A stretch of DNA of 64,000 nucleotides from Opitutia bacterium (lineage in GTDB: Bacteria; Verrucomicrobiota; Verrucomicrobiia; Opitutales; Opitutaceae): the NCBI GenBank assembly GCA_016190985.1, contig JACPPI010000001.1, positions 248,001-312,000 of the forward strand, in the 5' to 3' direction. The translations under genes and the position numbers were made by a program. The notes under the pieces are model-generated. The model was not told the DNA's origin and did no database searches. It saw only the letters and a program-made list of their open reading frames with translations. This document shows, piece by piece, positions 5,197 through 64,000 of this stretch. The stretch's first letter is position 1; the number at the start of each line of letters is the position of its first letter.

Positions 5197-5823
5197 ATGC
5201 CCGCCGCCAACCACCGCCCGCCGCCGAAACCCTGGCCCATGAAATGGATCGTGGCCGCCATCGTGCTGTTCGTGGCCGGTTACACGGTGGTGAACCTCTG
5301 CTTCCGGAAATCCGGCCGGCCCTACCGGCCTTATCAGGATGCGCAGGACCGGGCCACCACCGCGCGCCTGCTCGCCGCCGGCTGGCAGAAACTGCCCGTG
5401 GATGCGCGCCGCCCCGCCGAGAAGCCGGCGAGCGACGACACGCCCGCCGCGATCACCCGCGCCGCGGTCGGGCTGGGGCCGGACCTCGCGACCAAGTTCG
5501 CCGAGACGCCCAGGCTTCTCGCCAGCATCGACAAGGTCGTGGCCCCGGAGGCGGTGGCGCACGGCGCGGACTACACGGCCTACTTCACCGCCACCCTCAC
5601 CACCCAAAAGGCGCAGGTCGGCGACCTCGCGCTCTACCGCCGGGGCACCGAGCTCGTGCTCATTCCGACCACCGAAGCGCTCCCCGGCAAGGAGCTGATG
5701 AGCCGGTGGAGCGACTCGACCTACTGCGTGAATTTCTCCACCGCGAGCCTGCCGCCGGGCCGCTACCAGGCGCGGCTCGTCGCCAAGGGTCCGGCCGCCG
5801 CGTGGAGCTTCACGATCAAATAG
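5197..5823 (+). CDS. Membrane-anchored hypothetical protein
   Basis: A 208-residue protein with a proline-rich N-terminus, one membrane segment (about residues 18-33, WIVAAIVLFVAGYTVVNLC) and a soluble remainder. That remainder ends in a beta-rich domain (YTAYFTATLTTQ...YQARLVAKGPAAAWSFTI). The topology suggests an inner-membrane anchor with an exported domain. It is divergent from proS. The start is the ATG at 5197, immediately after a family C repeat. No family is recognised. Confidence 0.65.
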   Translation: MPAANHRPPPKPWPMKWIVAAIVLFVAGYTVVNLCFRKSGRPYRPYQDAQDRATTARLLAAGWQKLPVDARRPAEKPASDDTPAAITRAAVGLGPDLATKFAETPRLLASIDKVVAPEAVAHGADYTAYFTATLTTQKAQVGDLALYRRGTELVLIPTTEALPGKELMSRWSDSTYCVNFSTASLPPGRYQARLVAKGPAAAWSFTIK

Positions 5824-5835
5824 ACAGCGTGAGCT

Positions 5836-5863
5836 TGTCATTCTGAGCGCAGCGAAGAATCCA
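5836..5863 (+). repeat. Family A repeat, left flank of GIY-YIG gene
   Basis: A single arm of the family A repeat immediately upstream of the GIY-YIG start codon. Its inverse lies at 6184-6211, so the two bracket the nuclease gene. Confidence 0.8.
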
Positions 5864-5870
5864 TTTTCAC

Positions 5871-6266
5871 ATGTGCGCCCGTGCCGCCAACCGTTCGTAT
5901 TGGGTCTATATCCTGACGAACAAACGCAACGGAACCCTGTATGTCGGCGTGACTAATTCGCTCGAACGCCGCATCTGGCAGCACAAAGCCAAAATCATAG
6001 AAGGCTTCATCAAGCAACACGGCTTGGTTCAACTCGTCCATTTCGAGCAATTCCGGGACGTGAACATCGCCATCGCGCGGGAGAAGGAAATCAAGGGCTG
6101 GCTTCGCAAGCGCAAGCTGGCGCCGATTGAAGCGGACAACCCGGCTTGGACTGACTTGAGCGCCGGTTGGTTCGGAGGTTCACTGGATTCTTCGCTGCGC
6201 TCAGAATGCCAGAAGCCCATTGACGCGCGCGCCGGGATGACCGATGAAGGCGCGTCCCCACGATGA
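5871..6266 (+). CDS. GIY-YIG endonuclease domain protein bracketed by repeats
   Basis: A 131-residue protein with a complete single GIY-YIG domain: YWVYILTNKRNGTLYVGVTN at residues 10-29 (YIL...YVG), the ERR arginine motif near 33, and IAREKEIKGWLRKRK near 68. It belongs to the short UPF0213/YhbQ-like group, normally about 85-100 residues. The last 27 or so residues (from LDSSLRSEC) are encoded by the family A repeat at 6184-6211 and flanking sequence, not by conserved domain. The stop overlaps the argA ATG by four bases. Family members cut DNA, but the biological role of this group is unsettled. Inverted repeats on both sides suggest a mobile or formerly mobile unit. Confidence 0.85.
   Translation: MCARAANRSYWVYILTNKRNGTLYVGVTNSLERRIWQHKAKIIEGFIKQHGLVQLVHFEQFRDVNIAIAREKEIKGWLRKRKLAPIEADNPAWTDLSAGWFGGSLDSSLRSECQKPIDARAGMTDEGASPR
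6184..6211 (-). repeat. Family A repeat, inside the 3' end of the GIY-YIG gene
   Basis: An inverted copy of the repeat at 5836-5863. It is translated as part of the GIY-YIG C-terminus. Confidence 0.8.
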
Positions 6267-7561
6267 GCAACGGCGCCGACATCAAGCCCACCGACCTGCG
6301 CGGCATCCTGAAATACGTCCCCCGGTTTCAGGGCCAGACCTTTGTGATTTCCTGCGACGGCATCATCGTCGCCGATGAGAATTTCTCGAACATCCTCACC
6401 GACATCGCCGTGCTCCGCAGCCTCGGCATCAAGATCGTCATCGTCCACGGCATCGGCCACCAGATCGAGGAGCTGTCCAAGCTCCGGAGCATCCCGATCA
6501 CGGATACCCAGGGCACGGGCGTGGCCGACGCCGCCACCCTCGATCTCGCCATCCGCGCCTCGTCCCGCGTCACCCACCTCGTCATCGAGGGCCTGACCCA
6601 GAACGGCCTGAAGGCCGCGCTGACCAACGCCGTCCGCGCCGTGCCGCTCGGCATCATCAAGGGCGTGGACCACCAGTTCACCGGCCGCGTCGACCGCGTG
6701 GACAAGGAATTTCTCGCGCAGCTCATCGAGTCGCAGGTGGTGCCGGTGGTGAACCCCATCGGCTTTGACCGCGACGGCCGGCCACTGCGGATCAACTCCG
6801 ACCTGCTCGCCGCCGAGCTGGCCGAGGCGCTCCACGCCACGAAGATCATCTACCTCACGCCGCACGACGGCCTGGAGCTGAACGGCCAGCTGCAGCACCA
6901 GATCGCCGCTACCGCCCTGCGCGCCGTGCTCGACAGCAAGCCCGAGTCCATCAACGAGCCCATGCGCAGCACCGCGGCCCATGCCGTCAAGGCCGTCGAG
7001 ACCGGCACCCCGCGCATCCACCTGCTCGACGGGCGGCTCCTGGACGGCCTGCTCAACGAGATTTTCTCCAACGACGGCGTGGGCACGCTCATCCACGGCA
7101 ACGAATACCAGCAGATCCGGCAGGCCACCAAGCGCGACGTGCGCGCCATCTACAACCTCACCCGCCAGGCCGTGAAGCGCGAGGAGCTGCTCTACCGCAC
7201 CCAGGCCGCGATCGAGAAGAACATCGAGCAGTTCTACGTCTTCGAGATCGACGAGAACATCATCGCCTGCGTCTCGCTGCAGCTGTTCCCGGACAAGCCC
7301 AAGTTCGCCGAGCTGGGCTCGCTCTACGTCATGCCCTTCTACCATCACCGCGGCGTGGGCAAGAAGATGGTGGAATACGCCGGCATGATGGCGAAGGAGC
7401 GCGGCGCCACCGACGTGATCGCGCTGTCCACGCAGGCCTTCACCTTCTTCACCTCCGTGTGCGGCTTCGAGGAGGCGGACAAGGAGGCGCTGCCGGAGTC
7501 GCGCCTGAAGGCCTACGAGGAAAGCGGCCGCAACTCGAAGATCCTGGCGAAGAAGCTGTGA
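6263..7561 (+). CDS. argA: N-acetylglutamate synthase, kinase-fold plus GNAT (ArgA type)
   Basis: A 432-residue two-domain protein. Residues 1-280 form an amino-acid-kinase fold like N-acetylglutamate kinase (VIVHGIGHQIEEL; VVPVVNPIGFDRDG; RINSDLLAAELAEAL). Residues 290-432 form a GNAT acetyltransferase domain, with the acetyl-CoA loop in YHHRGVGKKMVEYA. This is the ArgA architecture, making N-acetylglutamate from glutamate and acetyl-CoA in the first step of arginine synthesis. The kinase domain normally acts as the arginine sensor. The start codon overlaps the stop of the GIY-YIG gene, so translation may be coupled to an inserted gene. Confidence 0.93.
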   Translation: MSNGADIKPTDLRGILKYVPRFQGQTFVISCDGIIVADENFSNILTDIAVLRSLGIKIVIVHGIGHQIEELSKLRSIPITDTQGTGVADAATLDLAIRASSRVTHLVIEGLTQNGLKAALTNAVRAVPLGIIKGVDHQFTGRVDRVDKEFLAQLIESQVVPVVNPIGFDRDGRPLRINSDLLAAELAEALHATKIIYLTPHDGLELNGQLQHQIAATALRAVLDSKPESINEPMRSTAAHAVKAVETGTPRIHLLDGRLLDGLLNEIFSNDGVGTLIHGNEYQQIRQATKRDVRAIYNLTRQAVKREELLYRTQAAIEKNIEQFYVFEIDENIIACVSLQLFPDKPKFAELGSLYVMPFYHHRGVGKKMVEYAGMMAKERGATDVIALSTQAFTFFTSVCGFEEADKEALPESRLKAYEESGRNSKILAKKL

Positions 7562-59498: not shown

Positions 59499-60085
59499 TC
59501 TCCCCCTACTAAAGCAGGGGGCTTCGGCGGCCACTCAAGTGGCGGTTGCGGCTAAAGCCGCTTCGGCCCCTGGGCTGAAGCCCGCTGAAGTCACTTCACC
59601 TCCTCTGCCACGCGAAAGTCGCCGTCGCCCCGCTCCTGATCCTGCCCGGCGATATACGCCAGGATTACTTCGTCCGTCACGTTCCCACTGCTCACCACAA
59701 AATACCCGCGCGCCCACAGGCGTGCCCCCCAGAACCGCCGGCGCAGCTCCGTATACTCTTGGAGCAGCGTATGCGAACTCTTCCCTTTCAGTCGCTGCAC
59801 CAGCTTGCTCGCCGCCAGCGACGGCGGATACCCCACCAGCAGATGCACGTGATCCTTGCTCACGTGCCCCTTCAGGATCGTCACTTCCTCCACCGCGCAG
59901 ATCTCCCGGATCAACTGCCTCGCCCGCAGTGCCGCCTCCCCCACCGGCACCGCCCGTCGATACTTCGTGATCCACACCACGTGCGCCTTCAGATCATACC
60001 GCGTATGCGACCCGCTCTTGTCGTTTTCCATCCCCATATCATACCATGCTGAAGCCGCCGACCAAAGTCGGGGGTTTCTCTCCCT
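59498..60085 (-). mobile_element. IS200/IS605-family insertion (tnpA only)
   Basis: One transposase gene flanked by subterminal hairpins. Right-hand end: aaacccccgactttggtcgg (reverse sense, about 60066-60085). Left-hand end: ctactaaagcagggggcttc and several further hairpins (59500-59590). No terminal inverted repeats and no tnpB, typical of the IS200 type. Exact ends are estimated. Confidence 0.75.
59591..60037 (-). CDS. tnpA: IS200/IS605-type transposase TnpA (HUH/Y1)
   Basis: A 148-residue Y1 HUH transposase: HVVWITKYRRAVPVG at the N-terminus, the HUH pair in HVSKDHVHLLVGYPP, and the catalytic Tyr within WARGYFVVSSGNVTDEVILA. It acts on single-stranded DNA by recognising end hairpins. Appears intact. 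Start at the ATG at 60037. Confidence 0.92.
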   Translation of the reverse strand: MGMENDKSGSHTRYDLKAHVVWITKYRRAVPVGEAALRARQLIREICAVEEVTILKGHVSKDHVHLLVGYPPSLAASKLVQRLKGKSSHTLLQEYTELRRRFWGARLWARGYFVVSSGNVTDEVILAYIAGQDQERGDGDFRVAEEVK

Positions 60086-62687: not shown

Positions 62688-62754
62688 TGTAGGAGCTTGC
62701 TTGCAAGCGATTACGCGCGGGGAAATGCCATCGGATGCAAGCAGGCTCTTACAA
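62688..62754. repeat. Degenerate family B palindrome
   Basis: tgtaggagcttgcttgcaag faces gatgcaagcaggctcttaca just upstream of hrpB's start. Confidence 0.7.
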
Positions 62755-62759
62755 GCAGT

Positions 62760-62787
62760 TGGATTCTTCGCTGCGCTCAGAATGACA
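62760..62787 (-). repeat. Family A half repeat
   Basis: tggattcttcgctgcgctca gaatgaca, single arm without a partner. Confidence 0.8.
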
Positions 62788-62975
62788 TGCAACGGGGATA
62801 TGTGAACAACCGGGGAGCAAGCGGTTGGACCCAAGTTATTCACCGGGGCAATTGCAAACCCCCCGCACCTGCCGGTGAACAAGATGGGAGGAAGAAGCCC
62901 TTCACTTTTCGGGCGGGCGGGGCATCTTTTCACCGTTCCTTGATAGAACAGTCGCAGTGCGGCGGCATGAAAAAC

Positions 62976-64000
62976 CCGCCGAGAGCGCGACTGGGATAAT
63001 CCCGGGCAACCGGGGAAAGGTGGGCGTTAATTGGTGACGCCCTCCCCTCGGCGGCGCGAGCCGCAGGCAGGCAAATATCACCAGTTCCTCTGGACGGCGT
63101 CGCAGCCGGTCCAGTTTTGCGACAAAGGAGCTGTGCGACGAGGCGCGAACTCAGAAACCGCGTCCGAGTCGAGTCAGGTCCAAGGCCAGTTTCGGGCCTT
63201 GCGCCGATGCAGTTACCCAGAGGGTTTCGGTTGCTACTGTATAACCAGGACGCAGCGCAGTGTTCCGGTGGGTCCACCCCACCAAAAGGCCCGGCCGTAA
63301 TAAGCGGGGCGCGAAAGGGCCACGGCGCAGCGGGGAGCGGGCGAGTCTGGCAAAGCTCGCAAAACCTCCTCCTTGGGGCGGCGCGTAAAACCGCGTCACC
63401 CAACCGCAAGTCGAACGCAACCTGAGAGGTAAGAGGTCAGACCCGTTACAAGGGGCCAACGCCCGGCCAAAAGCCGGGGCCGTCCCCTTGGCAAGGTGCT
63501 GGTGCGAAATGCAGACGTTGCAGGCGTGCCAACACCCGTCCGGCGAGCCACCCATCGGCAGATGGAGCCGAACCAGGCGCAGAGGCCTCACTCGAAAGAT
63601 TCCGGCGCTGAAAAGACCGGGACGGTCCCGCCATGAGACCGAAAGCATCGCCTGCCGCGGTGAGTGGCGTCGGGAAGCACACGGCCCGCGAAAGCGAGGC
63701 GCCCAATGCTGTGCGAATGGGAAAGAGCGCGTGGCGAGCGCCCACCCCCGATTTTGGCCCGGGAGCCGCAAGGCTCCCGGGCCTCAATCTTTCTGCAGGA
63801 GTCCATTTGTCAGCGCGCTGGGCCCGGGCGAGACCCGGAACCTCGAGCCCCGCCGGGCCCGGTGCGCTGACCGTTTGCCTCGCACGCAGGTGCGGGGACA
63901 TTCGCCCTGACGCAGGTCGGTGGACGAACCCCGGGATGCCAGCAGGCATCAACGGGGCACACCGGGCCGCGATCCGCCAGGTTTTCGCGCAGCGAGAAAC
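62976..64000 (+). ncRNA. Candidate giant structured noncoding RNA, cut by the window edge
   Basis: Over 1 kb without a credible gene but full of stable stems. Examples: ccgccgag/ctcggcgg (62976/63047) enclosing a CCCGG-GCAA-CCGGG hairpin (63001-63014); gggcgt/acgccc (63022/63037); caaggcc/ggccttg (63181/63195); gcgtcc/ggacgc (63160/63248); ggtggg/cccacc (63267/63278); cccggc/gccggg (63462/63473); a 12-bp stem with GCAA loop (63756-63783); gtcagcgc/gcgctgac plus gggcccgg/ccgggccc (63809-63871); gatgcc/ggcatc (63935-63950). GNRA loops read correctly only on the + strand, giving the sense. The class is unidentified: no RNase P, tmRNA, 6S or rRNA signature was recognised. Confidence 0.6.

Follow-up and report, generated by a model that had tools for sequence, protein, structure and literature searches.

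The window analysed here is a stretch of 64,000 nucleotides from an Opitutia bacterium, and its right-hand end is occupied by a structured and apparently gene-free kilobase on the plus strand (62976-64000). An initial annotation had read this kilobase as one giant noncoding RNA that continues to the window edge. Our analysis resolves it, together with a short stretch to its left, into the following features, all on the plus strand:

62935-62949 (+): conserved block GTTCMTTGAWAGAAC, a probable promoter or extreme 5′ leader
62949-62993 (+): covarying 5′ domain outside the Rfam model
62994-63742 (+): MISL RNA (RF03079)
63101-63104 with 63118-63121 (+): pseudoknot 1, loop CGCA pairing with TGCG
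63630-63633 with 63665-63668 (+): pseudoknot 2, GCCA pairing with TGGC
63750-63793 (+): predicted intrinsic terminator, a hairpin with a T-rich tail (12-bp stem and GCAA loop, 63756-63783)
63809-63871 (+): strong hairpin, TCAGCGCGCTGG...GGTGCGCTGA
63874-64000 (+), running past the window edge to about 64053: dispersed element of the form TTTGCC-hairpin-GGACAAACACCGG-stem-AGCA-stem-AACGGTG

Elsewhere in the window, a 6S RNA (RF00013, 57.6 bits) lies on the minus strand at 2309-2489, and an IS200/IS605-type Y1 transposase gene, the best Y1_Tnp match of the genome, lies on the minus strand at about 59591-60031, just downstream of an hrpB-type helicase gene.

A scan of the window with all Rfam models matched 62994-63742 (+) to MISL (RF03079) over the entire model (positions 1-751 of 751), with a score of 502.2 bits against a gathering cut-off of 274.6 (E = 2.3e-151). 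We regard the identification as virtually certain. The initial annotation had assigned the RNA to no known class, had named a strong Rfam hit as the result that would overturn this assignment, and had seen likenesses to ROOL, GOLLD, OLE and group II introns; because the match to MISL is both strong and full length, the claim of an unknown class has to be withdrawn, and none of the suggested likenesses produced a match. Covariance models of ROOL, GOLLD and OLE are in Rfam, and none of the three matched positions 62700-64000 at the gathering score or at E values up to 1; this looser scan returned MISL, three sub-threshold microRNA matches and nothing else. What lies here is therefore a member of an already catalogued family, a genuine large RNA that is ordinary as a discovery. 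The family was reportedly first described by Weinberg et al. in 2017; we found no paper in the open-licence literature that gives MISL a function, nor one that describes the family. In the text available from PMC10925082, MISL figures as an Rfam test sequence only.

To examine the structure we used an alignment (A1) of 63 MISL sequences, only 57 of which are distinct because many of the contigs and genomes are the same records. The alignment leaves out the window itself (L030), rows identical to retained ones (L012, L073, L096, L077 and L062) and partial sequences (L036, L039, L057, L060, L070, L088 and L100). Of the 174 pairs that the Rfam consensus assigns to the window, 159 are standard, and across the 57 distinct homologues standard pairs fill 86.5% of cells, as compared to 74.5% after shuffling. 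Changes on both sides of a pair are found for 132 of the 174 pairs against a shuffled mean of 85.8, a number reached by none of 500 shuffles, and cells with double changes amount to 1172 as opposed to 371.6 in shuffled alignments and at most 311 when the partners are slid by one to three columns. Support is weak for Rfam helices 3, 4, 9, 12 and 25-27 (7-65% of cells) in this sequence-only alignment. The consensus secondary structure of the family is retained through compensatory changes, and the nested long-range pairing proposed in the initial annotation is borne out, as is the covariation that it had expected among homologues of a real RNA.

Folding energy, which had also been put forward as a check, behaves differently. 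The MISL segment itself folds barely better than shuffled sequence and equally so on the two strands (z = -1.65 on the plus strand and -1.63 on the minus strand, with two of 20 shuffles as stable on each); this counts against our preferred reading, but folding energy on its own is weak evidence and as a test of MISL it is uninformative. The strong signal comes from the stretch 3′ of MISL (z = -8.96 on the plus strand and -8.82 on the minus strand) and arises from the terminator, the hairpin at 63809-63871 and the element that begins at 63874. The GNRA loops discriminate between strands more clearly: perfect GNRA-capped hairpins with stems of at least 4 bp number three on the plus strand and none on the minus strand, with 0.26 expected by shuffling, and three such hairpins were reached by one of 500 shuffles of 62976-64000 and by none of 500 for 62937-63795. 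That these loops are correct on the plus strand only was accurately noted at the outset; that there are many of them was an overstatement, as there are three, one of which is the terminator hairpin.

These measurements bear on the proposal that the stretch is an array of palindromic repeats at the DNA level rather than an RNA. Such a description is true of the sequence from 63874 onward, which is a dispersed palindromic repeat, and the near-equal folding of both strands after MISL fits it as well. MISL, however, is present in low copy number, covaries in a manner that includes G-U pairs and pseudoknots, carries its GNRA loops on a single strand, and is found in contigs with RNA-phage genes, all of which make a palindromic array a highly improbable account of it.

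Beyond the nested consensus, a covariation scan of the alignment put forward 283 candidates, the majority of which lie scattered and probably reflect phylogenetic noise; two stacked and fully paired helices were retained, the second of which was lengthened by eye. In pseudoknot 1, which is absent from the nested Rfam consensus, all four positions are paired in 57 of 57 distinct rows and three of the pairs have changed on both sides. The evidence for pseudoknot 2 is weaker: it too is paired in 57 of 57 distinct rows, with a single variable pair (C-G, U-A or U-G) and three that are invariant. Taken together, the two helices are paired in 456 of 456 cells and hold 75 double-change cells as compared to 21.6 after shuffling; the number of further pair types (five) falls under the shuffled mean of 7.0, whereas the remaining measures lie above the shuffles. 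We regard the first as a strong and the second as a weaker candidate for a pseudoknot helix. On these data the RNA begins with a closed 5′ hairpin domain, which is followed by 34 helix segments together with the two pseudoknot helices, and invariant single strands flank a long-range core pairing of GAG-GUAA-GAGG with CCUC-A-CUC. Such a build is typical of RNAs that act through their shape.

Inspection of the sequences flanking the Rfam span indicates that the conserved unit is longer than the model. About 60 bases 5′ of the model start are conserved in an alignment of 53 upstream regions (A2, drawn from 53 of the 63 A1 sequences). Within them, positions 62949-62993 form a domain in which an outer helix, CAGTCGC/GCGACTG (62949-62955 with 62987-62993), encloses an inner helix, CGGCGG/CCGCCG (62960-62965 with 62976-62981), and the outer helix stops one base before the first base of the Rfam model. 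Across the 53 sequences, 83.3% of the cells of this domain are paired against 66.7% after shuffling, double-change cells number 95 (25.9 shuffled, at most 51 in slid versions), and 13 pairs have changed on both sides, which is matched by eight of 500 shuffles; its fold z-score is -3.46. The block GTTCMTTGAWAGAAC, conserved in the same alignment, precedes the domain and is a probable promoter or extreme 5′ leader. A scan for sigma-70-type promoters returned no match. One of the phage-joined contigs described below, L303, starts at the equivalent of the last base of this block, as judged by comparison with L083; the starts of L305 and L196 are not placeable relative to it.

At the 3′ side, the hairpin at 63750-63793 (fold z-score -6.42) is probably an intrinsic terminator, as predicted from its stem and T-rich tail. 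A hairpin of at least eight pairs followed by at least five T in nine bases is present in 37 of 38 aligned downstream regions (A3, from 38 of the 63 A1 sequences), with stems that differ in sequence, L097 being the exception. A terminator scan also matches at 63750-63793, with two matches expected by chance. Adding the 5′ domain and the terminator to the Rfam span therefore brings the MISL unit to about 840 nt (about 62949-63793). The view that one RNA runs to the window edge does not hold, as this unit is followed by the second hairpin and then by the dispersed element; and because the part from 63874 is a mobile repeat, the kilobase originally singled out mixes unrelated things, even though its description as structured, plus-stranded and apparently free of genes was sound. 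As compared to RF03079, the present example agrees in its full-length match, consensus structure, strand and Verrucomicrobiota carriers, and adds to the nested Rfam model the covarying 5′ domain, the two pseudoknot helices and the terminator. These additions and boundaries should help to build a fuller MISL model and aid structural work.

No open reading frame accounts for the conservation. We followed the six longest frames of the region through 56 homologues and found that any one of them is open in eight at most. With no frame conserved, we reject a protein-coding reading, translation, which would have told against the initial annotation, finds no support, and the sequence behaves as expected of a non-coding member of RF03079. 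The broader assertion of a large and ornate noncoding RNA is sustained by this result and by the covariation, and indirectly by the joining of MISL to RNA-phage contigs. That the locus holds a stand-alone, untranslated MISL RNA gene with the ends given above is highly likely, and we are very confident that the explanation which best covers the data as a whole is an untranslated MISL gene of about 840 nt on the plus strand, which begins at about 62949 and is closed by an intrinsic terminator at about 63790. A candidate for an unknown giant RNA is thereby removed from the list and replaced by a defined MISL gene with improved boundaries.

Among 57 genomes including the source genome, MISL is found over the cut-off in 24 and at E values up to 0.001 in 27; it is absent from all 14 control genomes. 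An even draw of the phylum placed it in 23 of 288 genomes, 22 of them over the cut-off, and nearly all carriers have one copy per genome. A 20-base exact motif retrieved 44 stretches from named GTDB contigs, all 44 of which score with the MISL profile; their titles are those of Verrucomicrobiota lineages, except for two titled just ‘bacterium’. The genes for HrpB and TypA neighbour MISL at 20 and 19 of these 44 loci, respectively, and both do so at 12, counts that are lower bounds given the limited flanks; in loci of the Limisphaerales type, both are absent from the flanks. The source genome holds a second, diverged copy on another contig (C33:31713-32464, equivalent to L009 9713-10464; 405 bits), which is followed after about 1.3 kb by a copper-oxidase/cytochrome c gene. 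Its 3′ end, GCGCGCGGCGAGCGCC, is common to it and L037, and the two, from two genomes of the genus, look like a paralogous subgroup with a different neighbourhood.

Because the neighbours differ among loci, we consider MISL to be a stand-alone gene that has a favoured place in Opitutaceae. An alternative is that MISL serves the gene that follows it, here typA/bipA, as a long cis-regulatory leader; typA lies on the same strand with its start about 610 bases after MISL, from 5742 to 6352 in the coordinates of L008, and is recurrently found within the flank (at least 19 of 44 loci). This arrangement is very unlikely to reflect a leader, since a terminator-like hairpin intervenes 3′ of MISL in 37 of 38 loci, L022, L023 and L028 have no typA within reach and are followed by another reading frame, the Limisphaerales-type loci lack both HrpB and TypA, and the second copy in the same genome has different neighbours. 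The recurrent hrpB/typA location means that a stand-alone MISL may nonetheless have some local role in Opitutaceae.

The distribution speaks also to whether MISL is a group II intron, a retroelement or some other mobile RNA, an idea that its size, GNRA loops and long-range pairs invite and that the two copies in the source genome might be taken to favor. We consider it scarcely tenable: the all-Rfam scan of the window gave no match to domain V or to an intron covariance model, the intron families of Rfam all scoring below threshold; MISL contains no conserved frame; and nearly all carriers have a single copy, in a genomic place that recurs in Opitutaceae.

Motif scans of a viral collection yielded four contigs that contain true MISL sequence as judged by the profile, in each of which MISL lies in sense and on the 5′ side:

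L100, positions 5-475: MISL profile 145-609, sense, 5′
L196, positions 62-806: MISL profile 1-733, sense, 5′
L303, positions 47-319: MISL profile 1-267, sense, 5′
L305, positions 33-142: MISL profile 1-101 (35 bits), sense, 5′

The sequence that adjoins MISL in L100, L196 and L303 is leviviral: Pfam reports Phage_mat-A over its cut-off in L100 and L303 and below it in L196 (22.1 as opposed to 25), and L196 and L303 additionally carry RNA_replicase_B. L305, of which we examined the first 1046 of 15,111 bases, carries a DUF3383 gene and no leviviral gene. MISL stands at the start of all four contigs and is cut at a different 3′ point in each; in L196, the join falls at GGGAAAG, a string that occurs both in the 3′ part of MISL and in the sequence leading on into the phage. 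Other candidates for a phage-borne MISL gene were discarded: L181 and L182 are chance motif matches inside phage genes, L304 has one motif match that the profile does not support, and among the matches listed for 120 motif-matched stretches, L196 alone scored with the MISL profile.

We take these joins to be chimeras produced by template switching or by assembly, because two MISL queries had no match in a phage collection that contains 1596 records matching the levivirus replicase of L303; a plasmid collection likewise contained no MISL match. Should the joins instead be recombinants formed in vivo, MISL would take part in, or fall victim to, the replication of RNA phages in Verrucomicrobiota. 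Maturation or replicase genes of leviviruses are indeed present in three of the four MISL-bearing viral contigs, where MISL invariably lies in sense on the 5′ side, and the stretches retrieved with the control motifs that we used, for RNase P RNA and SRP RNA (36 and three viral stretches, respectively), gave no tblastn match to levivirus proteins within the retrieved sequence. This control, in which each motif catches only some of the RNAs in question, speaks somewhat for a special link between MISL and phages. Recombination in vivo is nevertheless very unlikely, as it sits poorly with the lack of a MISL match in the phage collection with its 1596 replicase-matching records, the four different cut points in contigs that all begin with MISL, the L196 junction on a string of both partners and the non-leviviral gene of L305, a pattern to be expected from template switching by reverse transcriptase or from errors of assembly. 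The related idea that RNA-phage replication in Verrucomicrobiota involves MISL, with leviviral replicases joining phage 5′ ends onto it in vivo, is decidedly improbable. Were it true, MISL-phage joins would mark the hosts of environmental RNA phages that at present have none assigned, and MISL would be an RNA that is accessible to replicases, very abundant or targeted by phages.

Even as chimeras, the contigs are informative, if only indirectly, with respect to expression. Leviviruses have no DNA stage, so L100, L196 and L303 derive from RNA, and MISL is in consequence probably transcribed in nature.

In the mode of action that we consider most likely, MISL would operate in trans, as a protein-binding RNA or a self-assembling RNA particle, rather than as a switch for a neighboring gene. 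We advance this idea tentatively, rating it somewhat below an even chance, and draw its likelihood purely from analogy with other large bacterial RNAs. ROOL, GOLLD and OLE are long, complex, non-coding and stand-alone, and MISL shares these four properties with them; it differs in that it was not seen as a regular phage-borne gene.

Between the terminator and the dispersed element lies the hairpin at 63809-63871, with a fold z-score of -4.41. By eye it is kept across loci of the genus, including L022, L023 and L028, where typA is not the next gene, and it is absent from L011 and L017, which belong to other genera. This hairpin could be an alternative 3′ end of MISL or another small element.

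The remainder of the window belongs to a dispersed two-hairpin element, whose motif, GACNNACNCCG-N7-AGCA-N6-AACG, occurs at 63923-63954 and again at contig positions equal to 64004-64035. The genome contains 46 matches to this motif with up to two mismatches, as compared to none for a reversed control pattern. Among 31 distinct copies, taken from 30 loci out of the 46 matches, the inner stem, which the motif does not constrain, is paired in 95% of cells against 63% after shuffling and shows 51 double changes against 15.5. The simple unit spans about 55-80 nt; on our own reading of the sequence, the copy at 63874 appears to be nested in another copy. With a stricter pattern, 19 of 57 genomes hold copies; the genus accounts for 18 of these, out of its 21 genomes, and the one other carrier lies elsewhere, so that two of 37 genera are represented. 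A pattern for the first hairpin, which was poorly chosen, found just two sites across 21 genomes.

Among 18 other loci compared at the site between MISL and the next gene, L027 and L029 carry the element and 12 that belong to the genus have an empty site; the sequence of L018 stops short of it, and the element is lacking in L071, L011 and L017, which are from other genera or not placed. Copies of the element also occur in frame within genes, with Pfam naming six of the ten proteins examined; the named hosts include UvrA-type, 2-oxoacid dehydrogenase E2, topoisomerase IV A and DsbD proteins, and a copy in a phosphate-transporter frame is probably situated 5′ of the start codon. Of 17 rows for the uvrA-like gene, three hold the element, four hold other small inserts, seven have no insert and three do not cover the site; in the E2 gene the element is found in two of the 12 rows listed out of 18. 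In-frame insertion accompanied by empty sites in relatives is thus seen for other copies, the window copy being intergenic. The element moves around the genomes of the genus, even into protein-coding genes, and is mostly confined to that genus.

As to what moves it, the element was found linked neither to the IS200/IS605-type transposase of the window nor to the other Y1 transposases. Y1_Tnp has seven matches in the genome, and none of the seven loci carries a convincing copy of the element: six lack it at up to four mismatches, and the two four-mismatch matches in L348 are unconvincing.

The element is reminiscent of two published kinds of repeat. PMC3733652 describes REPs that interrupt the two uvrA genes of the verrucomicrobium Opitutus terrae, and the element resembles REPs in which a GTAG or CGTC tag stands beside a palindrome of 20-40 bp in being a small palindromic repeat that also occurs within genes, here a uvrA-like gene; it differs in having two hairpins, no convincing Y1-transposase neighbor and, in the consensus of its copies as inspected by eye, neither a GTAG nor a CGTC tag. 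The palindromic elements of Rickettsia, which according to PMC10969869 are about 150 bp long and sit within protein genes unrelated to one another while keeping the reading frame, are likewise short palindromes of in-frame habit, from which the present element is set apart by its size of about 55-80 nt, its sequence, its host phylum and its nested copies. We found no report of the element in Opitutaceae in the open-licence literature, and because both the REPs of the O. terrae uvrA genes and the in-frame palindromes of Rickettsia had already been published, we regard it, as far as we can tell, as a new sequence family of a known type. It makes mobile palindromes with in-frame insertion amenable to study in bacteria other than Rickettsia, and exemplifies how mobile hairpins can inflate fold scores beside real RNAs. 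At the site in the uvrA-like gene, L138, L135, L139 and L148, from other members of the genus, carry other, unrelated small inserts, among them a palindrome and AAATC-type repeats.
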